This document shows positions 5,860 to 42,083 of a DNA stretch of 64,000 nt, piece by piece. Every line of letters starts with the position of its first letter. Within the stretch, counting starts at the first letter, position 1. This stretch comes from an uncultured Verrucomicrobia subdivision 3 bacterium (GTDB taxonomy: Bacteria; Verrucomicrobiota; Verrucomicrobiia; Limisphaerales; UBA11358). The stretch covers positions 62,001 through 126,000 of the forward strand of contig CAIXUZ010000036.1 of NCBI GenBank assembly GCA_903922735.1, given 5' to 3'. The notes under the pieces are model-generated. The model was not told the DNA's origin, searched no databases, and was given only the letters and a program-made list of their open reading frames with translations. The translations under genes were made by a program, and so were the position numbers.

Positions 5860-6840
5860 TCAAGGGATGGTTAAAATTTCCGGGCGTAGCTGACCGATGA
5901 ATTGGCTTGGCATTCGCTTGTCATAAGAACCTTCGATGGCCTGCTCCAAACCTACATGGCCGTCGGCGAACGTCACATTTGCCTTTTGCGCGTGGCGGAA
6001 GTGGGCATTCGGATAATTGTTAGCGCTGGCGTAATTAGTCTGCAAATCCAGGTAATACCACTCTTTCACCTCAGCGTCGGCTTGGAGGAAATCGTCGACC
6101 GAGGCCGCGTCAGCAAACACAGCGGTTTCCGTGGGGCGACTAATCCGTTTGACGTTTATCGACGGCTGAGCGGGGCTGCCGAAGAGGTAACGATTACAGC
6201 CGTAGCTGAAAATGGTGTTGGTACCTTTTGGTTTGAACTGCGGATTGGCCGCCTGATTCAGCACCGGGCAAAGCCGCACATCAATGCCATGCAAATAAGG
6301 AAACAATGCGCCGGAGGATAAATCAAACGCTCGCTGGCCATCGATACCCGCCTCCAACCAGCCGAACCACCAAGTCTTGCCTTTCATGTTGGCGCTGGTC
6401 CAGAGCGGAAATCCGTTTCCGTTATTGTCATCCCAATATAATTGCACGGCGACACCCAATTGGCGGAGGTTGCTCATGCAATCGGCACGCTGGGCGGTTT
6501 GCTTGGCTTTGCCCAGTGCCGGTAACAACATCGCCGACAGGACGGCGATAATGGCGATGACCACGAGCAATTCAATCAGGGTAAAACCCGGCGCGCGGCG
6601 GGTGGGGTGAACGGAATCCCGTTGCAATAATTCACGGCTCAATTGAAAACTGCGAATGCAATTCCGACAGATGCACGCGCGATTTCGAAAATTTTCCGGC
6701 ACCCGCGCGAGGAGCGCGCCATCGATCTCCTCCTGCGCGCACCAGCACTGGCCCTTGTAAGTGGCGGGCGAACAGATCTGGCACTCATTCACCGCGCCGC
6801 ACAAAGGGCAGGCTGCCGGATTGAAAAACCTGTCGGTCAT
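5860..6840 (-). CDS. Cysteine-rich CWC-like domain fused to an H-X9-DG pseudopilin
   Basis: 326 residues. Residues 11-61 contain nine cysteines arranged as CPLC, CQIC, CWC and CICRNC, resembling the small cysteine-rich CWC family. A type II secretion/type IV pilin signal then begins at Gly85-Phe86 ([20 protein letters not shown]), with the required Glu five residues after the cleavage point. The C-terminus has [15 protein letters not shown], the H-X9-DG hallmark of pseudopilins abundant in Planctomycetes and Verrucomicrobia. A prepilin leader is normally under 30 residues; here it would be 85. A TTG codon would allow an internal start about 13 residues before the cleavage site. Its start overlaps the stop of the upstream gene by 4 bases, so both are translated from the riboswitch-controlled message. 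Confidence 0.78.
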
Positions 6841-7811
6841 GGCTGGTCAGCGCGGATGCGATAAAAGGCTTGGGCTGCCGGCGGTTCTGGGTCGGCAAGA
6901 TTCAATCTGGCATTGTTGCCTGGAATGCAGTTGGTCACGGTCGTCCAATGTTTTAAATCCGACGAACGGTCGAGGGCATACAGCCAATTGGTGCAGCTCA
7001 GGAATTGAGCCTGCCACCGGCCGCTTTGGAGATTACCAGTCAGGTTTTTGACCAGCGCAGTGATGCTTGGATCCGGCAAAGCCGGCGCGTGTTTGTGCAC
7101 GAAATAGGGCGAGACGGTGTCGTATTCAAATTCGCCGGCAGCGACGGTGAGTCCAATCCACGAGCCGTTGGTAAGTTGCCGGCTGCTGATACCCCAGTTG
7201 AATTCCCATTGGCCATGAACGCCCAGCGAATCCGGGTTGTTGGCGTTGTCCGGGATCCAAAAGTCACCGATGCCACGCACGGGGCAATTCAGGAAACCAC
7301 CCGCATCGCCCTGTTCGGTCCAAAGTTCCCAGCTAGGGCCATACCATCCGCTCCAAAACAAGTCGTTCGTGTTCACCGGGGCCGCCGAATCTGGATCCAC
7401 GGTGGCGTTGGTCAACAATCCCTTCGAGAAATAATTGATGTTCGTGCCATCGGTTATTCCGGTGCCATCACCGCCGCCAAGGTGATAACCGATACCATAA
7501 AGCCCCAGTCCATATACCGGATGGATGCTTACCACGGAGTAAAGGCGTGGATCCGCCGCCATGACAGCGATAAACATCTGTTCGGCTGAAACCGTGCCAT
7601 TAAAGCGGTAGCCCCACACAAGAGATTTATCCGCGATGGGCGTGGGCACGGTGGAGCCGTAGGTGGATTCTGGTGCGCTCCATTCAATGACCAAGGCGGC
7701 ACGGTTGGTGCCGGTGCCGGTCCAGAACTGGATATCGTTCAATGAGACGGCCGAGGATTTCGAAACGAGAAACAGACCAACCAACGCCAGCCACGAACTA
7801 ATTCTTTTCAT
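6837..7811 (-). CDS. Secreted protein of unknown function under cobalamin riboswitch control
   Basis: 324 residues with a Sec signal peptide (cleavage near residue 21, after SSA). The mature part has distinctive blocks [36 protein letters not shown] and [12 protein letters not shown], then an Asn/Thr-rich region. A short C-terminal module resembling those at the ends of other exported proteins here ends in [10 protein letters not shown] cannot name the family. Because its leader is a cobalamin riboswitch, it should be made when B12 is scarce, so binding or scavenging of corrinoids at the cell surface is a reasonable inference. No TonB receptor or Btu transporter is in the window. It is the first gene of an operon with the CWC-pseudopilin gene. 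Confidence 0.75.
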
Positions 7812-7895
7812 TATACCGATCTTTCAATTTTGTTCGCGGAAAAATATTTCAAGCGAACAGTTTTTATTGGGAAGACCAGCGCGCAGCCTGAAAAT

Positions 7896-7933
7896 AAAAA
7901 ACCTTCAGACTCCGGCAAAACGGGGAATGAAGG
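7896..7933 (-). terminator. Rho-independent terminator in the riboswitch expression platform
   Basis: On the minus strand CCTTCA (7933-7928) pairs with TGAAGG (7907-7902) around a GC-rich interior, followed at once by six T. It lies between the cobalamin aptamer and the ATG at 7811, so ligand-dependent premature termination is the likely mechanism. A second 8-bp hairpin (7946-7968) lies between aptamer and terminator. Confidence 0.75.
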
Positions 7934-8028
7934 CATTCGACGAGTCCTGCCGAAACTAGATCGGCAGGCTGGCTCCATCCTTCTCTTTGCGGAGAAGTGC
8001 CCCGAAGCGTTCGAGGCTGACGAGCGCG

Positions 8029-8162
8029 GTCAAATCGGTATCCTGACTCAGGCTTCAAACCTTTTCCCGCCTTCCCGTTCCTGCGAACAGTGGCAATGGG
8101 AATTGTAGCCATTACAGTGGCGCAACCGTCCCGGATTTTCACCGGGTTCCCTGACATTTGAC
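8029..8162 (-). promoter_or_regulatory. Cobalamin (adenosylcobalamin-type) riboswitch aptamer
   Basis: Read leftward, this has the conserved cobalamin-riboswitch blocks in order: GGGAACCCGGTGAAAATCC, then GCGCCACTGTAATGG, then GAAGCCTGAGTCAGGATACC. A perfect 7-bp P1 helix closes it (GTCAAAT at 8162-8156 with ATTTGAC at 8035-8029). It controls the operon 7811-5860. Cobalamin binding normally reduces expression. Confidence 0.93.
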
Positions 8163-8257
8163 TGCGATAAGCGGAATTGCTTCCGCCATTTCAAAGAACG
8201 CGGCCATCTTACTCGCAAAACGTTTTAACCCAAGTGAAATTTTTACGCGCGGAAAAC

Positions 8258-8286
8258 TTGCGCGGCCTCCCCGCAATTTACATAAT
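8258..8286 (+). promoter_or_regulatory. Probable sigma-70 promoter of mdh
   Basis: TTGCGC (8258-8263), a 17-base spacer and CATAAT (8281-8286). The -10 ends 16 bases before the mdh ATG, so the leader would be only about 10 bases and lacks a Shine-Dalgarno sequence. Confidence 0.45.
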
Positions 8287-8302
8287 ACGGCCTCTTAAAT
8301 TT

Positions 8303-9298
8303 ATGAGCAAAACTCCTATTCGTATCGCGATCACCGGCGCTGCCGGCCAAATCGGCTACTCCCTCCTGTTCCGCATCGCCTCGGGCGCGGCGTTCGGCTC
8401 CGATCAACCGGTCATCCTGCATCTGCTCGAAGTTCCCGATGAAAAAGCCATGGCCGCGCTAAACGGCGTCTGCATGGAACTCGATGACTGTGCATTCCCG
8501 TTGCTCAAGGGCATTGTGGCCACTTCGAATCTGGACGAAGCCTTCAAAGGCGTGAATTGGGCGCTGCTCGTCGGCGCCGTGCCACGCAAGGCGGGCATGG
8601 AACGCAAAGATCTGCTCGGCATCAACGGCAAGATTTTCACCGGCCAGGGCAACGCCATCGCCAAGAACGCCGCGAGCGACATCCGCGTGCTGGTCGTTGG
8701 CAACCCCTGCAACACCAACTCGCTCATCGCCGCCAACAACGCGCCCGGCGTCCCGAAGGAACGTTTCTTCGCCATGACGGCGCTCGACGAAAATCGCGCC
8801 AAGACCCAGCTCGCCCAAAAAGCCAGCGTGGATGTCACCGCCGTCACAAACCTCGCCATCTGGGGCAACCACAGCGCCACGATGTATCCTGATTTCTTCA
8901 ACACCAAGATCAACGGACGCCCGGTGCCCGAAGTCATCAGCCACCGCGAATGGCTGGAGAAGGATTTCATCGCCACCGTGCAGCAGCGCGGGGCGGCCAT
9001 CATCAAGGCACGCGGCTTGAGCAGCGCCGCCAGCGCCGCCAATGCGGCCTGCAACACCGTCTACAAACTCACGCACCCGACACCGGCCGGCGACTGGTTC
9101 AGCGTGGGCGTGCATTCGGACGGCAGCTACGGCATCGAAAAGGGGCTGATTTTCAGCTATCCCATCCGGAGCAATGGCAAGGATTTTGAAATCGTTCAAG
9201 GCGTGCCGCTCAACGAATTCAGCAAGGCGAAAATCGCCGCGACCGAAGCCGAACTCAAGGAAGAGAAATCGCTCGTCACGGATTTGCTGCCGAAATAA
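8303..9298 (+). CDS. mdh: Malate dehydrogenase
   Basis: 331 residues; interconverts malate and oxaloacetate with NAD(H) in the TCA cycle. The NAD-binding loop GAAGQIG is at residues 12-18, [10 protein letters not shown] near 131-140, and the catalytic His is at 190 in [12 protein letters not shown], preceded by the LDENRAK block. [17 protein letters not shown] and the long C-terminal region mark the cytosolic-type MDH seen in many bacteria and eukaryotes rather than the lactate-dehydrogenase-like type. The frame is open 42 codons further upstream, but similarity begins at [12 protein letters not shown], so the ATG at 8303 is chosen. It is single-gene, with a terminator right after. Confidence 0.95.
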
Positions 9299-9313
9299 TC
9301 AAGGCTTCCGCAA

Positions 9314-9362
9314 CAACCCCCCGGTGGCGGTGTTCTGAAACCGCGACCGGGGGTTGTTTTTT
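9314..9362 (+). terminator. Rho-independent terminator after mdh
   Basis: A strong hairpin with CAACCCCC...GG on the left and CCGGGGGTTG (9347-9356) on the right, followed by six T, starting 15 bases after the mdh stop codon. Confidence 0.8.
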
Positions 9363-9551
9363 GGCGGAAAGTTTGCGTGGTTCCATCTCGCCGCTAAACA
9401 AACAGTGAATGGAGCCACAGGTGATTTATACTGGGGAATTTCGATACCAGCAGTTGGCTGCATCCGCTGCATCAGTTCCGTTTGCCGATTCGTTGTTTGA
9501 CCAAAACCATGCGGCAACCTAAACTTGCCGTCCATTTTTGGATTAATATTT

Positions 9552-11150
9552 ATGAAAATCATCATCTGCGACCCAGTGTCGCCCAAAGGCATCGCGTTGC
9601 TACAGCAACGTCCCGAATTTAAAGTCGTCGTCCTCCCCAAGCGCCTGTCCGAGGCTGAACTGCTACCCATCGTCGCTGATGCGACTGCCCTCGTTGTCCG
9701 TTCCGAAACCAAAGTCACCCAGAAAGTCATCGCAGCGGCCAAGCAGTTGCGCGTCGTCGGTCGCGCCGGCGTCGGCGTGGACAACGTGGATATCGAAGCC
9801 GCCACACAGCACGGCGTGGTGGTGATGAACACCCCCGGCGGCAACACGGTCACGACGGCGGAATTGAGTTTCACCATGCTGCTCTCGCTCGCGCGCAAGG
9901 TGCCGCAGGCACACGCGACGATGGTTGCCGGCAAGTGGGACCGCAAATTGTTTCAGGGCGTGGAACTTTCTGGCAAGACCCTCGGTGTGCTCGGCATGGG
10001 CCGCATCGGCACGGAAGTCGCCAAGCGCGCCATCGCGTTCGGCATGCGCGTCGTGGCCTACGATCCGTATCTCACCGAAGACCGTGCAAAAGCCATCGGC
10101 GCGGAATTCGCGCCGGAAGTGGACCATGTTTATCGCGAGGCGGATTTCATCACTGTCCACATGCCGGTGACGAAGGAAACCAAGGAAATGTTGAACGCCG
10201 CCGCGTTTTCGAAGATGAAACCCGGCGTCAAAATCGTGAATTGCGCCCGCGGCGAAATCATTTGCGAAGCCGACCTGATCGCGGCGTTGGAATCCAACAA
10301 GGTCGCCGGTGCGGCCCTGGACGTTTTCGCCGTCGAGCCGCTGCCCGCCGACCATCCTTATCGCAAACAGGCGAATCTCATTCTTACCCCGCATCTTGGC
10401 GCCAGCACCGAAGAAGCGCAGGAAAAATGCGGCATTGAAGTCGCTGAAGTCATCGCGGGATATCTGCTGACCGGCGAAGTTCGCAATGCCGTGAACCTGC
10501 CGTATCTTGATGCAAAGACCTACGAACAGGTGAAGCCGTATCTGCCGCTCGGCGAGGCGCTGGGCAAGTTGGTGGCGCAGCTTTCACCGGCGACCGCCGA
10601 CAAACTGCACATCACTTTTGGCGGCAATGCGCGGCATTTGCCGAATGTTGACCCGGTGACGCGCGCGATTCTGCGCGGCTTCCTTTCGACGAGCAATTTG
10701 AAGGACGTGAACAACGTCAATGTCCGCAGCGTGGCGCAGAGTATCGGCGTCACGGTTGAGGAAAAGAAATCGGACGAGCCGGTGACGTTCAACGAATGGG
10801 TTCACGTCCAAGCCCTGGCCGGAAACCGGAAGCTGGTCTCGGCCGGCGGCACATTCTTCGGTTCACCGAACAACCCGCGCATCGTGCGCATCTTCAGCCA
10901 GCCGGTGGAAGTTCCCATCACGGGCACCTTGCTGCTGTTGAACAACGCGGACAAGCCGGGCATCGTCGGTCATCTCGGCACGCTGCTCGCGAAGCACAAA
11001 GTCAACATCGGGAGCATGAGCCTCGGCCGCGACACGGCGGGCGGACGGGCATTGACGGTGTTGAGCCTGGACAGCGAGCCGCCGCAGGCGGTGCTGGATG
11101 AGCTGAAAAAAGACAATGACATCAGCAATGTAAAGGTGGTAAAGTTGTAA
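9552..11150 (+). CDS. serA: D-3-phosphoglycerate dehydrogenase
   Basis: 532 residues; oxidises 3-phosphoglycerate to phosphohydroxypyruvate, the first step of serine synthesis. Order: substrate-binding domain, NAD-binding domain with LGMGRIG (147-153), catalytic Arg in NCARGEII and His in LTPHLGAST, then an intervening ASB-type domain (about 320-450). A C-terminal ACT domain (from about 455, LLLLNNADKPGIVG) probably senses serine. This long form is the one found in Bacillus, mycobacteria and animals. The ATG at 9552 gives MKIIICDPVS, the normal start; the frame opens nine codons earlier at a less likely start. Confidence 0.95.
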   Translation: MKIIICDPVSPKGIALLQQRPEFKVVVLPKRLSEAELLPIVADATALVVRSETKVTQKVIAAAKQLRVVGRAGVGVDNVDIEAATQHGVVVMNTPGGNTVTTAELSFTMLLSLARKVPQAHATMVAGKWDRKLFQGVELSGKTLGVLGMGRIGTEVAKRAIAFGMRVVAYDPYLTEDRAKAIGAEFAPEVDHVYREADFITVHMPVTKETKEMLNAAAFSKMKPGVKIVNCARGEIICEADLIAALESNKVAGAALDVFAVEPLPADHPYRKQANLILTPHLGASTEEAQEKCGIEVAEVIAGYLLTGEVRNAVNLPYLDAKTYEQVKPYLPLGEALGKLVAQLSPATADKLHITFGGNARHLPNVDPVTRAILRGFLSTSNLKDVNNVNVRSVAQSIGVTVEEKKSDEPVTFNEWVHVQALAGNRKLVSAGGTFFGSPNNPRIVRIFSQPVEVPITGTLLLLNNADKPGIVGHLGTLLAKHKVNIGSMSLGRDTAGGRALTVLSLDSEPPQAVLDELKKDNDISNVKVVKL

Positions 11151-11195
11151 CTCTGTTTTTGAACTTAAACGAAACTTGTTAGTCCAATTGACCAA

Positions 11196-12290
11196 ATGAA
11201 ATTGAAATTGATCCTTTCCGCCGCGCTGATGGCCGGCGTGATCTCCGTCACGGCGGCCACTGAAACCGCCGCACCTAAAAGTGCAAAGGCTGCGGCCACC
11301 AACGCCGATCCTCAGGCCGCCATGACGGCGCTGTTTGGTGATCCGGTCATCGTCAAGGGCAGCGGCTTTGAGATCAAACGCAGTGAATTGGATGAAGTTC
11401 TTGCCGGTGCGAAGGCAAACGCCGCCTCCGCCGGGCAGACGCTGCCGCAGGATTTTTCCGTCGGGGTTTTGAACCAGTTGATCACGATCCAGTTATTGCT
11501 CCAAAAAGCCACGGAGGCTGACCGCGCGGCGGGCAAGACGGACGCGGATCTCCAATTCACCAATCTGGTGAAGCGCTTTGGATCAATGGAAGCGTTCGAA
11601 CGCCAGCTCAAAGCGGTCGGCATGACCATGGACAACTTGCGCGGCAAGGCCATGCAGGAAGCCGTGGCCAAGACTGCGCTTAAGCGGGAGTTAAAAATTG
11701 CCGTGACCGACGCGGATGCGAAAGATTATTACGCCAAAAACCCGGCGGATTTTGAGCAGGCGGAAATGGCGCACGTCCGCCATATTTTGCTGATGACCAT
11801 TGATCCAGCCACGCGCACGCCGCTTTCCACCAACGCCGTTGCGGCCAAGCGGAAACAGATTGAAAGCCTGCTCAAGCGGGTAAAAGACGGCGAAGATTTT
11901 GCCAAGCTGGCGAAGGAATTTTCTGAAGATCCAGGCTCCAAGGGAAACGGCGGGGAGCTGCCGGAATTTCATCGCGGCGAAATGGTGCCGGAGTTCGAGG
12001 CGGCGGCTTTCTCGCTGGCCAAGGACCAAGTCAGCGATATTGTCGCCAGCGCTTTTGGCTTTCACATCATCAAGGGAATTAACAAGACGGCCGCGAAGAA
12101 AATTGACTATGCCATTGTCGCCGCCGACCTCAAGGAAGTTCTGGCCCGGCGGCAAATCGCCAAGCTGGCGCCCGACTATGTGAAAAAACTGCGCGCGGAT
12201 GCCAAGTTGGAAATTCTCGATCCGACGCTTAAAGCTTTGAGCGAAAAAGTTGAAGCGGCCGCCATGGCTCCCTCAGGAAACAGCCAGTAA
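11196..12290 (+). CDS. Exported parvulin-type peptidyl-prolyl isomerase (SurA/PrsA-like)
   Basis: 364 residues with an N-terminal signal peptide (cleavage near residue 20). An alpha-helical chaperone region (about 55-175) is followed by a complete PpiC/rotamase domain (about 185-295): VRHILLM at its start, LAKEFSEDPGSKGNGGELPEF in the middle and ASAFGFHIIKG at its end. Such proteins help outer-membrane or secreted proteins fold in the periplasm, which fits a genome with many exported beta-rich proteins. The next gene begins 44 bases later on the same strand and could share the transcript. Confidence 0.88.
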   Translation: MKLKLILSAALMAGVISVTAATETAAPKSAKAAATNADPQAAMTALFGDPVIVKGSGFEIKRSELDEVLAGAKANAASAGQTLPQDFSVGVLNQLITIQLLLQKATEADRAAGKTDADLQFTNLVKRFGSMEAFERQLKAVGMTMDNLRGKAMQEAVAKTALKRELKIAVTDADAKDYYAKNPADFEQAEMAHVRHILLMTIDPATRTPLSTNAVAAKRKQIESLLKRVKDGEDFAKLAKEFSEDPGSKGNGGELPEFHRGEMVPEFEAAAFSLAKDQVSDIVASAFGFHIIKGINKTAAKKIDYAIVAADLKEVLARRQIAKLAPDYVKKLRADAKLEILDPTLKALSEKVEAAAMAPSGNSQ

Positions 12291-12334
12291 GCGGACTTGC
12301 CAAAACCGGCGGATGCGGCCATGTTGAACTTGTT

Positions 12335-13165
12335 ATGAAAATTAAGATTGCCATCATTGTTCTGGCCATTGCCTGCGTCGGTTTGGGGATCGGTCTTTTC
12401 GCCATTAAGAAGCAGGCGGAAGAACAGCAAACAAAAGATGCCGCCACCATTTCTGACCTCTCTGGACAGGTGGTGAACGCCAAGAAGCAAATTGATGATC
12501 TCGGTCAGGTCAATATCGTCCTCACGAATGATTTGGCTGCCAGCCGCCAGCAGCTTGCCCAGCTTTCCAACAGCCTGGCCTCCGCCGCTGCGGCTTTAAC
12601 CGATACCCAGTCTTCGCTGCTGAGTGCCCAAAACCAGATCACCAACCTTAACACGCACATCGCCGACCTTGAGGTGCAAAACAAAGTGCTCGACCAGCGC
12701 GCCAGTGAGCTGACCAATGCCTTGGCGCAATTGACCGGGAACATTGAAAAAACCCAAGCCCAGCTCGCCATTGCGGAAACCAATCGGATCTTCATCGAAC
12801 AGGAACTACAAAAGCAAATGGCCAAGAAGGCGGAGCTGGAACACAAATTCAACGATTTGGACACGCTTCGCGCCCAGGTCAAGAAGCTTCGTGATGAAAT
12901 GTTCGTCGCACGCCGGCTTCAGTGGATGAAAGAAGGCACCGGCCAAAATAAAAAAGGAGCCGAGCTATTGATCCAGCGCAGTGTGACGTCCGCACCGGCA
13001 CCGGTGGCTGCCCCCGTCATCGCCACTAACAAGCCGGCTGTCGTCCGTCCATCAGTTCGCACCGCAACGCCGGGTTCCAGCTACGATCTTAACGTCGAGG
13101 TTGGATCGGATGGCTCCGTCAAAGTCATACCACCGCTCGGTGCGACGAACAGCCCCGCACACTGA
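12335..13165 (+). CDS. Membrane-anchored coiled-coil protein
   Basis: 276 residues. One N-terminal membrane segment (about residues 4-22, IAIIVLAIACVGLGIGLFAI) is followed by a long Gln/Asn/Leu-rich coiled coil to about residue 195. A low-complexity Ala/Pro/Val tail comes after. I recognise no enzymatic domain. The layout suggests a periplasmic spacer or scaffold attached to the inner membrane. It sits between the foldase and the FmdB-like gene on the same strand with short gaps, so an operon is likely. Confidence 0.7.
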   Translation: MKIKIAIIVLAIACVGLGIGLFAIKKQAEEQQTKDAATISDLSGQVVNAKKQIDDLGQVNIVLTNDLAASRQQLAQLSNSLASAAAALTDTQSSLLSAQNQITNLNTHIADLEVQNKVLDQRASELTNALAQLTGNIEKTQAQLAIAETNRIFIEQELQKQMAKKAELEHKFNDLDTLRAQVKKLRDEMFVARRLQWMKEGTGQNKKGAELLIQRSVTSAPAPVAAPVIATNKPAVVRPSVRTATPGSSYDLNVEVGSDGSVKVIPPLGATNSPAH

Positions 13166-13194
13166 AGTGTGCCAGCCCGTCTCCGCCTGCGGCT

Positions 13195-13494
13195 ATGCCG
13201 ACCTACGAATATATCTGCAAAAAATGTGGCCACGAATTTGAGGCCATTCATTCCATCGCGGCTGAGCCGCTCAAAAACTGCCCGGAAGAGGCTTGCAGCC
13301 GGAAGAAATGGGGCCGCGGCAAAGTCTCCAAAAAAATCAGCGCGGGTTCCGGCCTGCTCTTCAAAGGCAGCGGGTTTTATATCACCGACTATCGCAGCGA
13401 AGGCTATAAGTCATCGGCCAAAAAAGATTCAAGCGATTTCAAACCCACGGCCAAGCCGGAAACAAAACCCGTAAAAAAAGCAGACCCAAAATGA
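13195..13494 (+). CDS. FmdB-family zinc-ribbon protein
   Basis: 99 residues. MPTYEYICKKCGHEFEAIHS is the classic FmdB/CxxC start, with a second cysteine pair in the CPEEACSRK stretch and GSGFYITDYRS after it. A Lys-rich tail follows. The family is thought to be regulatory, but its molecular role is unknown. The stop overlaps the next start as ATGA (13491-13494), showing translational coupling. Confidence 0.88.
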   Translation: MPTYEYICKKCGHEFEAIHSIAAEPLKNCPEEACSRKKWGRGKVSKKISAGSGLLFKGSGFYITDYRSEGYKSSAKKDSSDFKPTAKPETKPVKKADPK

Positions 13495-28062: not shown

Positions 28063-28166
28063 AATGTCTCCGGGCAATCCAGTGAAAAAGCCGGCAGTTT
28101 TTTAACGTTCGGCGGCAAGGAATTTTTTTATTGGCGCGTTGCGGTGGATGCCTTATTTGTCTGGGG

Positions 28167-34131: not shown

Positions 34132-34545
34132 TCAGGCGCCCTGACCATGCCCGCCTTTGCCCCCGGAACCGCCGGCGCCACCGGCGCCACCTTTGCCCTG
34201 CCCGCCATTGCCACCCTGGCCCGAACCACCCTGCGGGCGATGGGACTTGAATTCCTCAAGGCTCAACACGCCATCGCCATTTTTGTCCATAGCCTTGAAG
34301 TTGGCTTCCGCCTTGGCCGGATCCTGTTGAGCCCGTTTGCTGGCTTTGAATTCATCAAGGCTCAATACGCCGTCGTTATTCGTATCAAGCTTCTTAAAGA
34401 TTTCTTCAGGGGTCGGCCGTTTCCCCTGACCAGCCCCCCCGGAACCGCCGGCACCGCCGGAGGTCGAACCGGACGGTTTGTCCTGGGCAATTGACAGCGT
34501 GGTGGCAACAGCCAGCAGGCTGATGGTCGCGATTACTGTTTTCAT
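34132..34545 (-). CDS. Exported EF-hand protein with glycine-rich tail
   Basis: 137 residues from an ATG at 34545 that begins a signal peptide (to about residue 20). Two canonical calcium-binding EF loops, DTNNDGVLSLDE (54-65) and DKNGDGVLSLEE (87-98). The last 35 residues are almost only Gly with Gln, Lys, Ser and His. The frame is open another 51 codons upstream, but that part overlaps the upstream gene and has no export signal at its front. Last gene of the minus-strand cluster; 64 bases separate it from the Spy-like gene. Confidence 0.83.
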   Translation of the reverse strand: MKTVIATISLLAVATTLSIAQDKPSGSTSGGAGGSGGAGQGKRPTPEEIFKKLDTNNDGVLSLDEFKASKRAQQDPAKAEANFKAMDKNGDGVLSLEEFKSHRPQGGSGQGGNGGQGKGGAGGAGGSGGKGGHGQGA

Positions 34546-34609
34546 GGTTATTTGATTGTTTGCAGGTTTTGTTATTTTGCGGGTGCCACAGTTTCGTTGA
34601 GCAGACGGT

Positions 34610-34993
34610 TCATTCAAGGGGCGGACGTTGCGGTTTCTGGCCATCGGGGCCGCCCTGGCTATCAGGACCACCCTGACCACCGGGGCCGCCCTGGCCACCG
34701 CGCTGCGGCGGGCGCATGTTTTTCATTTTTTCGAGCTGGTCCGGCGTCAGGATGCTTTCCAGCTTCGCCTTGGTCTCGGCTTCGAGCGCGGCTATCTTGG
34801 CCTTTTGTTCATCCGTCAATTTGAGCTGTTCCTGGGCCCGGGGCGGCAGCAGGTGAAATCCGGGCGGCTTGCCGGAGTTGCCTTCGCGTTGCGGCGGCCG
34901 CTGATCATTGGATGCCGGCGGCGCGTCTTGCGCCGTGAGGAGGCAGGTGGAGGCACCGAGTGCCAAGGCGAGGAGGGTGAGTTTTGTTTTCAT
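34610..34993 (-). CDS. Exported Spy/CpxP-like small protein with Gly/Pro-rich tail
   Basis: 127 residues with a signal peptide (to about residue 21). The centre, LTDEQKAKIAALEAETKAKLESILTPDQLEKM, is the LTxxQ-type helical hairpin of periplasmic stress proteins such as Spy and CpxP, which act as chaperones or metal-responsive regulators. The last 35 residues are a GGQGGP-type low-complexity tail. Confidence 0.72.
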   Translation of the reverse strand: MKTKLTLLALALGASTCLLTAQDAPPASNDQRPPQREGNSGKPPGFHLLPPRAQEQLKLTDEQKAKIAALEAETKAKLESILTPDQLEKMKNMRPPQRGGQGGPGGQGGPDSQGGPDGQKPQRPPLE

Positions 34994-35137
34994 AATTTAA
35001 TTTTCTTTGTTTCTTGTTTGTGGGTGTGAATCACTGTCACGCCCGAACTCTAGCACAGCCAACCTTAAGCAGACATGAAGCGAAATATTTTTTTGCGCGG
35101 CTGAAATTGAAACCCCGAAAAACGGTAACTTTTCATT

Positions 35138-36472
35138 TCAAAAGCCCGATCCATCGCTTCGTCCTAGCGGTCTGGGCCGGCCTGGACCGCCGGCGCCGGG
35201 CTTCGGGCGGGCGGACACGGCGGGCAACTCCGGTTTCAACCCGGCCAGCATGGCGGCGAGACGCTGCGCGATGTCAGAATGGCGAGTGAGCAAGTCGGTA
35301 GTCTCGCCGGGATCCGTGGCCACCTGGAACAGAGAGCGTTTACCGTCACTCGTCTCAATGAGCTTCCAGTCTCCGTCAAAAACGGCGAAGTCGGCGGCCG
35401 CGATGACAAACATTCCGCGATCCCGCACCCGCCCCGCCTGAAGAGCATCCCAGAGATTTTTGCCATCCAGCCGGGATGATTCTTTCACCGTCACACCCGC
35501 CGCCGCCGCCAGCGTGGGAAACAAATCATGAACCGCCAGCGGCTGCCGGCTGACAGTGCCGCCTTTGATCTGCCCGGGCCAGCGCAAGAGACACGGCATA
35601 CGGATGCCGCCCTCGAACACCGTGGACTTGCCGCCGCGCAACGGAGCGTTGCTCCCGCCGCCGCGCCCGCCCGCGCCGTTGTCGGAGAAGAACAAGACGA
35701 TCGTATTCTCACGCAAGCCCGATTCATCGAGCGCTGCGAGAATCCGGCCGATGGAAGTGTCCATGGCTTCGGTGACGGCGGCGTAAGTTGCCTCCGCCGG
35801 CCGGAGATTTTTATATTTAGCCACCAATTCCGCCGGCGCGCCGTGGGGGATGTGAACCGCATTGAAAGCGACCTCCATGAAGAACGGGTGCTTCACATCG
35901 CGCTGCTGCAATTGCCGGATGGCTTCACTGGCAAGCAGGTAGGTTGAGTAGCCTTCCTCGTTCAGGGTCTGGCCATCGCGCTGCCAGTCCAATTCGCCCC
36001 GCTGGTCGGTGTGCTTGAAATAATCTATCTGCGGGCCGAGAAAACCATAGAAATGGTCGAAGCCATGTTTCTGGGGCGTACCGGATCGGCCGAGATGCCA
36101 TTTGCCGATGAGCGACGTCCGATAGCCGGCGGAACGCAGCGCCTCGGGAAGGGTGGCGATTCGTTCCGGAAGATTCTGGCCCGGGCCGACGACATCCCCG
36201 ATGCCGAAGCGACGCGGCATCTGTCCCGTAAGCAACGCCGCACGCGTCGGACTGCAAACCGGGTAAGCATAGAAACGCTGCAATTCCACGCCGTCCTTCG
36301 CGAGCCGGTCCAGCTGCGGCGTGGGAATGTGCCCCTGGTGAAAACCCACATCGCCCCAGCCCAGATCGTCCGCGACAATCACGAGAAGGTTCGGCGCAGC
36401 CTTGCGTTCCTGGCCGTAGCCAATGCCGGCGCAACTGACGATTGCGGCAGCTAATAAAATGCGGGAATTCAT
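35138..36472 (-). CDS. Exported sulfatase (S1 family)
   Basis: 444 residues from an ATG at 36472 that opens a signal peptide (to about residue 20). ADDLGWGDVGF carries metal-binding Asp35/36. CSPTR at 73-77 is the CxPxR motif whose Cys becomes formylglycine, followed by AALLTGQMPRRFG. Sulfatases of this type remove sulfate esters from algal or host polysaccharides. An anaerobic-type maturase or formylglycine-generating enzyme must be encoded elsewhere. The C-terminus is an unusual Pro/Gly/Arg-rich tail, echoing its operon partners. The frame runs 65 codons further up, into the YHYH gene. Confidence 0.9.
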   Translation of the reverse strand: MNSRILLAAAIVSCAGIGYGQERKAAPNLLVIVADDLGWGDVGFHQGHIPTPQLDRLAKDGVELQRFYAYPVCSPTRAALLTGQMPRRFGIGDVVGPGQNLPERIATLPEALRSAGYRTSLIGKWHLGRSGTPQKHGFDHFYGFLGPQIDYFKHTDQRGELDWQRDGQTLNEEGYSTYLLASEAIRQLQQRDVKHPFFMEVAFNAVHIPHGAPAELVAKYKNLRPAEATYAAVTEAMDTSIGRILAALDESGLRENTIVLFFSDNGAGGRGGGSNAPLRGGKSTVFEGGIRMPCLLRWPGQIKGGTVSRQPLAVHDLFPTLAAAAGVTVKESSRLDGKNLWDALQAGRVRDRGMFVIAAADFAVFDGDWKLIETSDGKRSLFQVATDPGETTDLLTRHSDIAQRLAAMLAGLKPELPAVSARPKPGAGGPGRPRPLGRSDGSGF

Positions 36473-36492
36473 AATCAGTCTTGTGGGTTTGA

Positions 36493-37671
36493 TCAATTGC
36501 GCGGCGGCGGCCCGCCACCGGGCGGTCCGGGACGCGGGTTTCCGCCGCGCCCTCCTGCGCCACCCGGAGGGCCGCCGCCAGATTGCTTGGTTGCGTCGCA
36601 CACCTCTGCATCGCCCAACGCCGCCGTGCCGAGCGGGCCTTTGAAACCACCCAGAATGTAGGGCCAACGGCTGCTGACGTGGTAGTGATAGCCGAGACCA
36701 TCGTGATCGTGACCGTTGATGGCATCGAGATTCTTCGGCTGACTGCCATCGGGTTCGGTCGGGCCGCGAATGGCAAAACCATCCAGCGCAAAGCCCACGA
36801 TTTTGCCCGACGCATCATTTTCCATCACCGAAGGCGCCCGATGGTAATGATACTCGTGGCCGAAGCCGGTATGCCCGCCATGCGGATCAAGCGGCGCGAG
36901 GTTGTGAAAGGCCGTGATGCGATTGACCGGTTCGGGCGGAAAAAAACGCACACCATTGAGGCTGATGCCCACGCCGGAACGCGGCGAGAACCGCGCCTGC
37001 CGCAGCATCGTGGGCGACGCGGAGGCTTTGGGGTTTTTGGGGAGAAAGACGGTGACGATTTGCTCGACGGGCTTCAATTCGATGACGGAGTTCACCACGC
37101 CGTTTGATTTTGCCTGGGCAAAAGTCCAGCCGCCAAGTTCCTGGCGCGCGACCTTGTCGAACTCCGTTCGATTCCTGGTGCGATGCACCGTGCCGTCCGC
37201 GTCGAACATGTCCCAACCGCGCGTGTTCAAAAGACGGAGATAATCCCCATCCACTCGGTAAATCTTTTTATCCACGGTATCCTCCCAGTAGCCGCCCTGG
37301 TCCCTGATCGTCACCGGCGACCACGGCCCGGTCTCATGATCCGGCGGCAGCGAGCGCACGACGATCTTATAAACCGCGGCCTTCGAACCGTCGCTGAGTA
37401 TACCCGTCATCTCCGTGATGGGTTTCACCAACGCCCTGGGATCAAACAAGAGCGGGGGCGTGTTCTTGCCGGCGCTGGCGGCGGCAATGGCATGCTTCAA
37501 GTTTGCCTGCGCCGCCGCGGGCGACAATTGGGAGGCGGCAGAACGGGTGGGCGCGTTGGTGATGCCAAGGTCGTCTTCATGACCCAAATGGGCGCGAGCC
37601 GTGTGGTTGGATAAGCAGCCGGCGACACACGCGGCAGCGAGGACGCCCGTCAAAGTGGAAGTGGGTTTCAT
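36493..37671 (-). CDS. YHYH-domain lipoprotein with Gly/Pro-rich tail
   Basis: 392 residues from an ATG at 37671. The N-terminus has a lipobox (VAGC, Cys19), so it is probably lipid-anchored. YHYH tetrads occur in HEYHYHRAPSV and GLGYHYHVSSRWPY, with VGFALDGFAIRGP between them, as in the shorter homologue at 23011. The last 30 residues are Gly/Pro/Arg only. The stop lies 20 bases before the sulfatase start, so the two are very probably co-translated. Substrate or metal is unknown. Confidence 0.83.
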   Translation of the reverse strand: MKPTSTLTGVLAAACVAGCLSNHTARAHLGHEDDLGITNAPTRSAASQLSPAAAQANLKHAIAAASAGKNTPPLLFDPRALVKPITEMTGILSDGSKAAVYKIVVRSLPPDHETGPWSPVTIRDQGGYWEDTVDKKIYRVDGDYLRLLNTRGWDMFDADGTVHRTRNRTEFDKVARQELGGWTFAQAKSNGVVNSVIELKPVEQIVTVFLPKNPKASASPTMLRQARFSPRSGVGISLNGVRFFPPEPVNRITAFHNLAPLDPHGGHTGFGHEYHYHRAPSVMENDASGKIVGFALDGFAIRGPTEPDGSQPKNLDAINGHDHDGLGYHYHVSSRWPYILGGFKGPLGTAALGDAEVCDATKQSGGGPPGGAGGRGGNPRPGPPGGGPPPRN

Positions 37672-37696
37672 TGGGTTATCTTTTGAGGGGCAGGCT

Positions 37697-37882
37697 TCAA
37701 GGTAATTGAACGCCAATGCGGTAGAACCGCTGCGCACTGCCAGTATTTGCATCGTACAACGAATCCACGCCGATGTTGCCGGGTATAGCATTCACAACGA
37801 ACCAGGTTTGGGCGGCGTAAAGCTTGACGGCTGGCAGACAAGCCATCAGCAACGCAATCAAGAGCTGATAGCATTTTCTCAC
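37697..37882 (-). CDS. 61-residue signal peptide joined directly to a C-terminal FYR module
   Basis: A clear export signal (residues 1-23, ending KLYA) is followed by only 38 residues that match the end of the module found on large exported proteins here (TWFVVNAIPG...GSAQRFYRIGVQLP). It may be the remnant of a larger gene after an internal deletion, or a real mini-protein. It begins the minus-strand cluster and ends 25 bases before the YHYH lipoprotein start. Confidence 0.5.
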   Translation of the reverse strand: MRKCYQLLIALLMACLPAVKLYAAQTWFVVNAIPGNIGVDSLYDANTGSAQRFYRIGVQLP

Positions 37883-38075
37883 GGTTTTATCTTACGCGAG
37901 CCAACCTTAAGGGAAGATGAAGCCGCGTGTCCGCGAAGTCATCGTCCAAATGAGGGTGATGCCGCTTATCATTGGATATTCGGGAGAAGAAAGGTGACAA
38001 AAAACGGATTTGAATACCTGAGGAGATGGAAGATAATCACGAAATGGCCCGTGCTATTCGCAGGCAATTAACCTG

Positions 38076-41000
38076 ATGAGAATTCCCAGTTCATACCTTC
38101 TGGCAGGCTGCCTGACCCTGATTGGCATCCCGATGGCAATAACCCAGCCGGTACTGCCGGCGGGGGAAGGCAAACGCATTTTCGACGTCCGCAACTACGG
38201 CGCGGCAGGCGACGGCACCACGCTCAACACCGCGGCCATTCAAAAGGCGATTGACGCGCTGTCCACCAGCGGTGGCGGCACGCTTTGGATTCCCCGGGGC
38301 CAGTTTTTATCGGGCGCAATTTTTCTCAAGCCCGGCGTCAATCTACATCTGGACCAGGGGGCGGTGCTTAAAGGGTCCACGAACATCGAAGACTATCCGG
38401 TCCGGAACACGCGCATTGAGGGGCATTTTCAGGTCTGGATTCCAGCCCTGATCAACGCCAGCAACGCGGATCATCTCCGCATCACCGGTGCAGGCACGGT
38501 TCAGGGTGGCGGCAAACCATTTTGGGACGAGTTCTGGAAGCGGCGCGGCGCGGACAAGACGACCAAGAACCTTGATGTGCGCCGGCCGCGAAATATTTTC
38601 ATCGAAGACTCGATGGATGTGGAAGTCAGCGGCATCTCGCTGCGCGACTCGGGGTTCTGGAATTTGCATCTGTTCCGCTGCCAGGATGTGCTCGTGGACA
38701 AGGTGGATATCCGCACGCCAAGCCACGCACCCAGCACCGACGGGATTGACGTGGACAGTTGCCGGAATGTGACCGTGCGCGGTTCTTACCTTTCCGTGGA
38801 TGACGATAATATCGTTCTGAAAGGCAACAAGGGGACTTCCGCGCTGGACGACAAGACAATCGGGCCGGACGAGCACATCCGCATCTCCAACTGCACATTT
38901 GGCCTGGGCAATGCCGCGCTAACCCTCGGCAGCGAGGCAACGCTAGTGCGCGACGTGATCATGGAAAACTGCACTCTCACCGGGACGGGAAAAAACTGCA
39001 TCTTAAAACTCAAACTTCGCCCCGATACAGAACAGCATTATGAAAACATCATGGTCCAAAACATCACGGTGAATAACCCGGAGGCCCAGTTGATTTCGAT
39101 CCAAGGCTGGACACAATACTTTGACTTGCAGGGCCGGCCGGCCCCCAGCCAGTTAGTCACCAATGTGACGCTGTCCAATATCACCGGCACGTTGCATGAT
39201 TTCGGACAAGTGGCCGGCCCCGCCAAAAGCAGCGTGTCAGGCCTCACATTCAAGGATATCAACGTCACGCTGAAAAATTCCGAGGTGGTGATAAAAAATG
39301 TGAAGGATTTGAAATTAAGCAACGTGAAGATCAATGGCGTTAAATACACGGGTGACCAGCCCATTGCCGATGATCCCTTTGCCTGGCCGCCCATCACCGC
39401 GCAAACCAAACCGTGGGCCTACAACTGGTGGATGGGCAGCGCCGTGGACAAAACCAATCTCACCCAGGAACTCGAACGCTATGCCGCCGCCGGCCTTGGC
39501 GGCATTCACATCATTCCGATCTACGGCGCGAAAGGTTTTGAGGACAAATACATTGATTATCTCTCGCCAAAATGGATGGAGATGATGGGCTGGGCCGTCA
39601 GCGAAGCGCGCCGGCTCGGCATGGGCGTGGACATGACCACCGGCAGCGGCTGGTGCTTCGGCGGGCCGCAGGTCAAGGATCAGGATGCGAACGCCAGCGT
39701 CGTGGTGAAAACCTACGAAGTAAAAGCCGGTGAAAAGCTGACGCAAAAGTTCAACCGCAAATCCACGCAAGCCCTGGTCGCTTTCGGACCGGAAGGCAAA
39801 GTCATTGAACTCACCGACAAGATTTCAGCAGATGGCGAGGCGAGCTTCTCCCCGCCCAACGGCACTTGGACCGTTTACGCCATTTCCCAAAAACCTTCCG
39901 GCCAGAAAGTCAAACGCGCCGGTCCCGGCGGCGAAGGCTGGATGCTCAACCTGATTTACGCGCCAGCGATGGATGACTATCTCAAGCCGTTCACCGCCGC
40001 CTTCGCCGACTACACCGGCCCGAAACCGCGCGCCCAGTATCACGACTCCTACGAGTATCGCTCCGACTGGTCACCGGATTTCTTTGCACAATTTGAGAAG
40101 CGCCGCGGCTATCGCTTGCAAATGGAACTACCCGCGCTATTCAGCAAGGAAGACAACGACCACGCCGCCCGCGTGAAGTGCGACTACCGCCAGACCGTCA
40201 GCGAAATCATGGCCGAGGAATCGTTGCCCAAGTGGGTGAACTGGTCGCACGAACACGGCTTCCTCACGCGCAACCAAGCGCACGGCTCGCCCGGCAACTG
40301 GCTGGATCTCTACGCCGCCGCCGACATTCCCGAGACCGAGATGTTTCATACTGACCGCAACAAACTCATCTCCAAATTTGCGTCGTCCGCCGCGCACGTC
40401 ACCGGCAAACCGCTGGTCAGCGCCGAGACCGGCACCTGGCTGGAGGAACATTTCACCGAGAAGCTGTCCGACGTGAAATATCTCATGGACGACCTGTTTC
40501 TTTCCGGCATCAACCATCTGTTTTATCACGGCTGCTGCTACTCGCCCGATGAAGCCGGCTGGCCCGGCTGGCATTTTTACGCCTCGCTGGAGATGAACCC
40601 GCGCAATTCCATCTGGCGCGACGCCCCGGCGCTCAACGCCTACGCCGCGCGCGTGCAGTCCGTCCTGCAATCCGGCCAACCCGACAACGACATCCTGCTC
40701 TACTGGAACACGGGCGATTTCTGGATGCAGCCCGGCGACAAGCTTCTGCCGCAACTCACTGTCCACGCCCGCGACTGGTTCGAGGGCCAGCCCATCGGCA
40801 AGACCGCAGAAAGACTTTGGATTGAGGGTTACGCCTTTGATTACATTTCCGATTCTCAGATAAAAACGATCAAAATCATTGATGGAAAAATCAAGATGCC
40901 CGGTGGCCAATATCGGGTCATCGTTGTGCCGGAAAGCAAATTCATTCCGCTCGAAACTTTCAAACAACTGCTCGCGCTGGCGGAAAAGGGCGCGACGGTG

Positions 41001-42083
41001 ATTTTTGAAAGAAGACTTCCGACCGATATCGCTGGCGCTGGCAATTTAGAAGAAAAGCGATCTGATTTCAAAAAACGAATTGAACAACTTCAAAAAACTC
41101 TGCGGGAGCCGGCTTTTCTGAATGATTTAGAAGCGAAGATTGGGAACGGATATATCTTTGTTGGTTCCGTCGTAATTTCGCGGCCGATGAATCCAGTTCC
41201 AGAACCCATGTCGGGTATCGGATTGTCATTCATTCGCCGCTCATTTGCTGGTGGTTGGAATTATTTTATCGCTAACCGGTCAGAAACAAATTTCGAAGGC
41301 TGGGTCATGCTTAACCAAGATCCCAAATCTGTTATCGTTCTTGACCCGATGACTGGTAATTCGGGTATCGCATCAGTAAAACACTCGGATGGCTTACATT
41401 TGTCGCGGGTTCACCTGCAACTGGCTGCTGGCAGCACCGTGATTTTGCGAACGTTCACTGATAAAAAGGTAGAAGGCCAGGCGTGGACTTACTGGAAGCC
41501 CCAGACACCAGACGACAAACCCCAGATTCTGGCCGGCCCATGGAACGTGAAATTCATCGGCGGCGGCCCGACGCTGCCCGCAGATTTTCAAGCCGCCAAG
41601 CTCGCCTCGTGGACGACGTTCCCCGACACGAACATGCAAGCCTTCGCCGGCACCGCCAAATACAAGGTTACCTTCGACGTTCCCCCGGAGCGCGGGTCGA
41701 TGACCCGCAGCAATTCCGCAAGGAAAGACGCGCTGCAGCTCACAGAGCCGCGCTCCAATTATTTCCTCGACCTCGGCGACGTGCGGCAGAGCGCGCGGGT
41801 GCGGGTGAACGGCAAGGATTACGGCACGCTCATCACGCCTCCGTTCCGGGTGGTGGTGGACAATCTGAAACCGACCGGCAACACGCTGGAAGTGGAAGTC
41901 ACCAGCGTCGCCGCCAACCGCATCCGCGACCTGGACCGGCGCGGCGTGAAGTGGAAAACCTTCCGCGACATCAACATCGTGAGCCTAGATTACAAACCCT
42001 TCAACGCTTCCCATTGGCCGCTCACCGATTGCGGCTTGCTTGGCCCGGTGACATTAACCCCGGTCACGCCAATGAAGAATTGA
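38076..42083 (+). CDS. GH28-GH106 fusion enzyme (putative rhamnogalacturonan hydrolase/alpha-L-rhamnosidase)
   Basis: 1335 residues with a signal peptide. Residues about 30-430 form a GH28 beta-helix: FDVRNYGAAGDGTTLNTAAI, TDG at 221-223 (Asp222), Asp243-Asp244 in SVDDDNIVLKG, then TLGSEATLVRD. From about 440 (PWAYNWWMGSAVDKTNLTQELERYAAAGLGGI) it becomes a GH106-type rhamnosidase, with HDSYEYRSDW and FEKRRGYRLQMELPALF. A C-terminal beta-sandwich (about 1180-1320) has YFLDLGDVRQSARVRVNGKDYG. Both domains act on pectin: GH28 on galacturonic acid, GH106 on rhamnose. The fusion would suit rhamnogalacturonan I. Around 40840-41400 the gene is more AT-rich than its flanks. Confidence 0.82.
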   Translation: MRIPSSYLLAGCLTLIGIPMAITQPVLPAGEGKRIFDVRNYGAAGDGTTLNTAAIQKAIDALSTSGGGTLWIPRGQFLSGAIFLKPGVNLHLDQGAVLKGSTNIEDYPVRNTRIEGHFQVWIPALINASNADHLRITGAGTVQGGGKPFWDEFWKRRGADKTTKNLDVRRPRNIFIEDSMDVEVSGISLRDSGFWNLHLFRCQDVLVDKVDIRTPSHAPSTDGIDVDSCRNVTVRGSYLSVDDDNIVLKGNKGTSALDDKTIGPDEHIRISNCTFGLGNAALTLGSEATLVRDVIMENCTLTGTGKNCILKLKLRPDTEQHYENIMVQNITVNNPEAQLISIQGWTQYFDLQGRPAPSQLVTNVTLSNITGTLHDFGQVAGPAKSSVSGLTFKDINVTLKNSEVVIKNVKDLKLSNVKINGVKYTGDQPIADDPFAWPPITAQTKPWAYNWWMGSAVDKTNLTQELERYAAAGLGGIHIIPIYGAKGFEDKYIDYLSPKWMEMMGWAVSEARRLGMGVDMTTGSGWCFGGPQVKDQDANASVVVKTYEVKAGEKLTQKFNRKSTQALVAFGPEGKVIELTDKISADGEASFSPPNGTWTVYAISQKPSGQKVKRAGPGGEGWMLNLIYAPAMDDYLKPFTAAFADYTGPKPRAQYHDSYEYRSDWSPDFFAQFEKRRGYRLQMELPALFSKEDNDHAARVKCDYRQTVSEIMAEESLPKWVNWSHEHGFLTRNQAHGSPGNWLDLYAAADIPETEMFHTDRNKLISKFASSAAHVTGKPLVSAETGTWLEEHFTEKLSDVKYLMDDLFLSGINHLFYHGCCYSPDEAGWPGWHFYASLEMNPRNSIWRDAPALNAYAARVQSVLQSGQPDNDILLYWNTGDFWMQPGDKLLPQLTVHARDWFEGQPIGKTAERLWIEGYAFDYISDSQIKTIKIIDGKIKMPGGQYRVIVVPESKFIPLETFKQLLALAEKGATVIFERRLPTDIAGAGNLEEKRSDFKKRIEQLQKTLREPAFLNDLEAKIGNGYIFVGSVVISRPMNPVPEPMSGIGLSFIRRSFAGGWNYFIANRSETNFEGWVMLNQDPKSVIVLDPMTGNSGIASVKHSDGLHLSRVHLQLAAGSTVILRTFTDKKVEGQAWTYWKPQTPDDKPQILAGPWNVKFIGGGPTLPADFQAAKLASWTTFPDTNMQAFAGTAKYKVTFDVPPERGSMTRSNSARKDALQLTEPRSNYFLDLGDVRQSARVRVNGKDYGTLITPPFRVVVDNLKPTGNTLEVEVTSVAANRIRDLDRRGVKWKTFRDINIVSLDYKPFNASHWPLTDCGLLGPVTLTPVTPMKN

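Follow-up and report, generated by a model that had tools for sequence, protein, structure and literature searches.

The locus described here lies within a 64,000-nucleotide (nt) stretch of DNA from an uncultured Verrucomicrobia subdivision 3 bacterium (the window), which starts at base 62001 of contig C36 in a draft genome of 4.48 Mb (G000); its relatives and named homologues belong to Verrucomicrobiota. On the minus strand, four genes encode exported proteins: a YHYH-domain protein (36493–37671, 392 amino acids (aa), with a possible earlier start at 37791), a Cys-type S1 sulfatase (35138–36472), a Spy/LTXXQ-like protein (34610–34993, 127 aa) and a two-EF-hand protein (34132–34545, 137 aa), separated by gaps of 20, 144 and 64 nt, respectively. 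A preliminary description of this DNA had placed four such open reading frames (ORFs) in a row, followed by a terminator; all four are real, and a strong intrinsic terminator with a GC-rich 15-pair stem and a T-rich tail does follow the last gene (34105–34072, minus strand). The end that it gave for the region, 37882, had to be revised, as the GTG at this position opens a different ORF, of 61 codons and in another frame. Our analysis suggests that the four genes form two units of one regulon, in which the YHYH protein and the sulfatase most likely function as a pair.

The YHYH protein matches PF14240 at 38.9 bits (gathering cut-off 25) over profile positions 4–109 of 193, short of a full-length match. 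Distant sulfatase-linked YHYH homologues likewise match only the first half of this profile, and the sulfatase-linked form is, by profile comparison, a divergent subfamily of PF14240. A lipobox in the window protein, CVAGC, is absent from the orthologues that were read. The sulfatase belongs to the S1 family by both score (PF00884, 214.7 bits) and its C-x-P-x-R signature, here VCSPTRAALLTG, and its closest solved relatives are carrageenan and GalNAc sulfatases. The third protein scores below the curated cut-offs (PF07813, 24.0 versus 24.3 bits; NF007769, 22 versus 174 bits) and features LTDEQ and LTPDQ motifs, hence the label 'Spy-like', while the fourth is a clear EF-hand_7 protein (PF13499, 60.7 bits, cut-off 30) with canonical ligands in both loops. 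The 61-codon ORF (37697–37882, minus strand), placed between the YHYH gene and the regulator box that precedes it (see below), has a signal-peptide-like start and the end QRFYRIGVQLP, which is typical of large secreted proteins, and may be the internally deleted remnant of a gene once driven by that box. A 1335-aa fusion of GH28 polygalacturonase-like and GH106 rhamnosidase-like domains (38076–42083, plus strand) adjoins the locus.

A direct-repeat box, first spotted as TTAAGGTTGGCT occurring twice in the locus, precedes both units with the consensus CTTCAY-N5-CTTAAG-N11-TANNNT. The copy upstream of the YHYH gene reads CTTCAT-CTTCC-CTTAAG (37906–37922, minus strand), followed after 11 nt by the −10-like hexamer TAAGAT (37894–37889), and the copy upstream of the Spy-like gene reads CTTCAT-GTCTG-CTTAAG (35064–35080, minus strand), with TAGAGT (35052–35047) at the same distance. 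The latter box is conserved among Spy orthologues of the genus. With two half-sites at an 11-bp period that overlap the −35 position, this anatomy is that of an OmpR-family response-regulator site, as judged from the motif. An ECF-type −35/−10 promoter with a 19-nt spacer and the motif TTAAGGTT-N7-STARAKT were both dropped in favour of the direct repeat after alignment of upstream regions. Because the second box and its −10-like hexamer lie within the 144-nt gap (35080–35047), the locus comprises two transcription units, each with a box-driven promoter, and not the single operon proposed in the preliminary description, with read-through from the YHYH-sulfatase unit into the Spy-EF-hand unit being possible.

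Conservation of the YHYH-sulfatase arrangement is extensive. At all orthologous loci readable for both genes (about 30 of 31; the L066 locus is cut short, and in L067 the YHYH frame is broken in two), the sulfatase gene lies directly 3' of the YHYH gene or is fused to it. In a class-wide set of 42 YHYH genes, for which similarity to YHYH was the sole criterion of choice, a sulfatase gene on the same strand lies no more than 150 nt away in 19 cases, frequently overlapping by 4 nt, against a chance expectation of about one (estimated from the 2 to over 40 sulfatases per genome), and about half have no adjacent sulfatase. YHYH-adjacent sulfatases fall into at least two deep clades of the sulfatase tree, and the pairing is therefore either old or has arisen repeatedly. 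Natural fusions extend this association: one 890-aa chain (L037) combines EF-hands, YHYH, a Gly/Pro stretch and a sulfatase, with no second signal peptide seen, and another protein (L057) is a YHYH-sulfatase fusion. About ten distant YHYH proteins, from about ten genomes, carry EF-hands after a G/P/K linker and often continue with a PEBP domain and a conserved domain of ~200 aa. An EF-hand is also built into the Spy protein of a sister species (G003). The ~200-aa domain (L072, L085, L101, L107 and others) shows 75% mean column identity, includes the sequence YADNWFxLYINGRL and gave no Pfam match in L072 and L085. In Opitutae (L179, 10557–12452), the genes that come after the YHYH-sulfatase pair encode a PEBP protein and a membrane protein of the HupE/UreJ_2 type, a family that includes metal permeases.

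Each of the four window proteins carries a Gly/Pro tail, as had been described. Gly plus Pro account for 0.73 of the last 30 residues in the YHYH protein, 0.43 in the sulfatase (G/P/R-rich), 0.57 in the Spy-like protein (G/Q/P-rich) and 0.60 in the EF-hand protein (G-rich), compared with a mean of 0.16 across 44 window ORFs and a maximum of 0.33 outside the four. Another YHYH protein in the window (23011), said earlier to be tail-less, has a P-rich end (0.33). Tails recur on both YHYH and sulfatase partners across about 30 genomes and are cationic (K/R) in many of them; the tails are old and not a recent local repeat expansion. G/K/P/R-rich ends were found on 39 of 47 YHYH-adjacent sulfatases versus 12 of 81 other sulfatases (p=8.5e-14, indicative only, as orthologues are not independent), and several of those 12 sit inside YHYH clusters. 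The YHYH tail (about residues 365–392) is disordered in the AlphaFold2 model, with a predicted local distance difference test (pLDDT) score below 50, and by inspection none of the four tails features the hydrophobic segment or motif of a PEP-CTERM- or LPXTG-type sorting signal. These properties, and the use of the low-complexity stretch as an inter-domain linker in fused relatives, count against the sorting role suggested earlier, and a linker between domains is the simplest reading. By contrast, the earlier idea that the proteins act together is supported by the conserved adjacency, the tails on both partners, the natural fusions and the shared box. Neither of the observations named earlier as refuting it, scattered and tail-less homologues in relatives or a recent repeat expansion, was borne out, as the homologues are both adjacent and tailed. 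Fusion and adjacency support an association between YHYH protein and sulfatase; the proteins may also form a physical surface complex and bind metal or calcium.

The AlphaFold2 model of the YHYH protein has a mostly confident core (about residues 75–360), for which Foldseek and VIA-align detected no solved relative; a single viral match, I3UL96_3, superposed poorly. Across 73 YHYH sequences, D262, H267, Y274–H277, D297 and D316 are among the invariant residues, and H321, H329 and H331 are near-invariant. This conserved set of His, Asp and Tyr residues plausibly represents a metal site, in line with the published prediction that the YHYH domain of phage tails is a Zn-dependent hydrolase (PMC7824862). 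That was the single functional prediction for YHYH in the literature consulted, which otherwise yielded one passing mention of the domain and no link between YHYH and sulfatases.

The two units of the locus differ in their history. No full-length match to the window YHYH protein was found in 35 other genomes of the genus, and congeners lack the YHYH-sulfatase pair; orthologues in Opitutae and Verrucomicrobiaceae are up to 80% identical. Within the genus, Spy is a native gene (82% identity in G003), and its EF-hand neighbour is kept in G003, where the same slot contains a GH28/GH106 gene, further genes, Spy, the EF-hand gene and an orthologue of the window gene at 28131, with an oxidoreductase gene in place of the YHYH-sulfatase pair. 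These comparisons make it probable that the pair was acquired recently, from relatives of the Opitutae/Verrucomicrobiaceae type, and came to lie next to a Spy-EF-hand unit that is native, and its box would either have arrived with it or derive from the Spy promoter.

The distribution of the box was examined with the perfect pattern CTTMAYN5CTTAAG, using the reversed pattern as control. Six sites were found in the 4.48 Mb genome versus one control, and all six precede regulon-type genes: the window YHYH gene, the window Spy gene, and, on contig C50, a second sulfatase-type YHYH gene, a gene for an FGE-like and arylsulfotransferase fusion followed by a multicopper oxidase gene and, divergently, both an FGE-like+PEBP gene and the response regulator gene of a two-component system. 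Ten genus genomes contained 52 sites versus 18 controls. Among 30 genus sites examined, 27 lead into genes for the regulator (8), YHYH (9), Spy (7, of which 4 sit before a small receiver-like gene followed by Spy), MbnP-type proteins (2) or an FGE-like/arylsulfotransferase protein (1); two more lead into one recurrent family with no assigned identity and the last into an unrelated gene. Class-wide, the box with its −10 hexamer stands before YHYH genes in 5 of 37 cases and before other genes in 0 of 410 (p=3e-6). In the orthologue set, 17 of 17 hits precede YHYH genes or GKGG-stretch genes in the PEBP-gene position (the PEBP match was made on one of the GKGG-containing genes). A looser pattern was found before 31 of 70 YHYH genes in a scan with a mismatch permitted and with many nearly identical orthologues among its sequences. 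Co-regulation of the box genes is well supported by this distribution. A recurrent exported family (YTIVDTGQTKCFDNRNEIAPPKPGQPFYGQDAQF; L263, L273) lies directly behind a box in G014. The second sulfatase-type YHYH gene (L178, G000:C50:30000-44000, 6267–13302) lies behind the multicopper oxidase and the FGE-like+arylsulfotransferase fusion (1193 aa), and both units there carry boxes.

A two-component system is encoded on the same contig (G000:C50). Family scores were taken on its G005 orthologues, to which the G000 kinase and regulator are 61% and 88% identical, respectively. The best NCBIfam match of the kinase is cztS_silS_copS (284.2 bits, cut-off 292.55) and that of the regulator is cztR_silR_copR (230 bits, cut-off 279.2), with PmrA next. 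In G005 this system and Spy are divergently arranged, and in G034 it stands beside two YHYH genes and a fusion of MbnP with a di-haem peroxidase. Related kinases occur in seven YHYH loci within the flanks examined. Because the kinase and regulator resemble heavy-metal families, and multicopper oxidase and MbnP genes are among the box genes, a metal has moderate support as the predicted inducing signal. Several further fusions were observed around these systems. MbnP is joined in one chain to a MauG/MbnH-like di-haem cytochrome c peroxidase in L245 (8715–10505) and L204 (7009–9042), both near the box-bearing two-component system, and the L245 fusion adjoins two YHYH genes. An FGE-like and PEBP/YbhB-like fusion (L243, 5708–7585) is divergent from the two-component system and is followed by an arylsulfotransferase gene, by the gene of a sulfatase with the tail GGGGKRK and by one more gene.

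The sequence directly shows the order of the genes, their tails and fusions, the distribution of the box and the nearby regulator genes, and the explanation that we favour, and consider on balance probable, is a metal-responsive regulon that includes both units of the locus and has the YHYH protein and sulfatase as a working pair. An OmpR/PmrA/CopR-type regulator and its CopS/CusS-like kinase (G000:C50) would act through CTTMAY-N5-CTTAAG, 11 nt before the −10 hexamer, with the regulator serving as a class II activator at the box. This would switch on the YHYH-sulfatase and Spy-EF-hand units, the two-component genes themselves, the second YHYH gene and the FGE-like/arylsulfotransferase-multicopper oxidase unit. 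The inducing signal would most likely be a transition metal, copper first, or a linked envelope stress. The exported YHYH protein, a His/Asp-rich putative metalloprotein, would cooperate with the adjacent sulfatase; EF-hand modules would accompany them as separate chains or fused, and the low-complexity G/P/K/R tails would act as flexible tethers or adhesive linkers. Regulator binding, the metal signal, physical association and catalysis are steps that we infer.

Several observations weigh against this explanation. Control patterns occur at about 1.8 per genome, and most distant YHYH genes lack the strict box upstream. The window and the regulator genes are on different contigs, with binding to the boxes assumed, and both kinase and regulator score below the curated heavy-metal cut-offs (TIGR01386/TIGR01387). 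It is not obvious why a copper response would include a sulfatase. Finally, the AlphaFold2 model of the L037 fusion (pLDDT 60, predicted template-modelling score 0.55) has a poorly folded YHYH part and gave no usable YHYH-sulfatase interface, probably because its alignment contained close relatives only.

The strongest alternative is polysaccharide utilisation, in which the YHYH protein, as a metal-dependent hydrolase or binding module, would join the sulfatase in acting on a sulfated glycan, the two-component system would sense that glycan or its breakdown instead of a metal, and the tails would bind the anionic polymer. The carrageenan and GalNAc-sulfate activities of the nearest solved sulfatases, the GH28/GH106 gene flanking the locus, the cationic tails of many genomes and the hydrolase prediction for phage YHYH all fit this scheme. 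We nevertheless consider it unlikely: the genus box genes encode Spy, MbnP-type, multicopper oxidase, FGE-like and YHYH proteins, among which neither a glycoside hydrolase nor a transporter was recognised, the sulfatase alone stood out as a glycan enzyme beside YHYH in the clusters examined, and the sensor resembles metal sensors. A bolder form of the metal-responsive explanation, in which YHYH is a metal-bound exported protein with a fold lacking precedent and a new kind of copper-dependent partner for secreted sulfatases, giving them activation, protection or oxidative assistance in a surface assembly held by EF-hands and disordered tails and deployed by a copper-sensing two-component system across Verrucomicrobiota, appears quite improbable to us.

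Slightly less probable still is a role for YHYH as a maturation or metal-delivery helper that activates the Cys-type sulfatase, either as a new route to formylglycine or as an aid to its formation. Such a helper would account for the strict pairing, the fusions and the His-rich invariant site; FGE is itself a copper enzyme (PMC4505483), and FGE-like domains occur within the regulon. However, the two regulon FGE-like domains, which read RGGNWYNGENGHGRVSNR and RGGTWWNGNSANDYDYGHAR, lack by eye the active-site Cys motif of true FGE, and a maturation role is therefore not favoured. The related idea of YHYH as a missing sulfatase maturase was weakened by the presence of PF03781 genes in 15 of 15 genomes checked, which leaves no obvious maturase gap, although PF03781 is a broad family and these genes are candidate maturases by profile; the many YHYH genes that stand apart from a sulfatase also speak against a helper. 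Equally doubtful is the view that the tails merely reflect the composition habitual in GC-rich secreted proteins throughout the lineage, with the adjacency being ordinary clustering without joint function, since, although low-complexity tails change quickly in sequence and some non-adjacent sulfatases also have them, such tails are confined within the window to these four genes, are enriched beside YHYH (with the dependence among orthologues noted above) and go together with recurrent fusions and with a promoter box in common.

The YHYH/sulfatase gene set, small and widespread in Verrucomicrobiota, is apparently undescribed. For an orphan domain that is widespread and has no detectable relative of solved structure, the box, two-component system, sulfatases, MbnP and multicopper oxidase together provide a testable pathway, and the box offers an easy way to search for more members. 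Should the metal reading hold, extracellular sulfate-ester chemistry would be tied to metal supply in these sulfatase-rich bacteria.

Several known systems come close to the predicted regulon. MbnP/MbnH, CorA and MopE are copper proteins (PMC3912023, PMC3423442), and the MbnP-di-haem peroxidase fusion occurs in the same box-bearing cluster in relatives; it was not found next to the window genes, and its link to YHYH is through regulation and neighbourhood only. Phage-tail and bacterial YHYH proteins (PF14240; PMC7824862) have the conserved His/Asp/Tyr motif and predicted metal site in common with the form described here, which differs in matching only the first half of the Pfam model and in being cellular, exported and paired with a sulfatase. 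CusRS, CopRS and CzcRS (TIGR01386/TIGR01387) are the best NCBIfam counterparts of the kinase and regulator and are in keeping with multicopper oxidase and MbnP among the box genes, although the scores here fall below the curated cut-offs and a metal response is an extrapolation from them. Cpx/Bae-Spy and Zra-ZraP are envelope stress systems, and here too a Spy-like exported LTXXQ protein appears to be under a two-component system, from which it is divergent in G005, but this protein scores just below LTXXQ and far below the Spy equivalog, with EF-hands and a G/P tail added. The closest parallel to the box itself is that of PmrA/BasR, whose targets are lipid A modification genes in another phylum, whereas the predicted sites here precede YHYH, Spy, sulfatase, MbnP and multicopper oxidase genes. 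In the PmrA box, two half-sites of the CTTAAG/CTTAAT type stand head to tail, 5 nt apart (PMC3973317), and the locus box matches such tandem CTTAAK-like half-sites and their spacing, with C for A in the first half-site, in keeping with a regulator whose relatives include PmrA/BasR.

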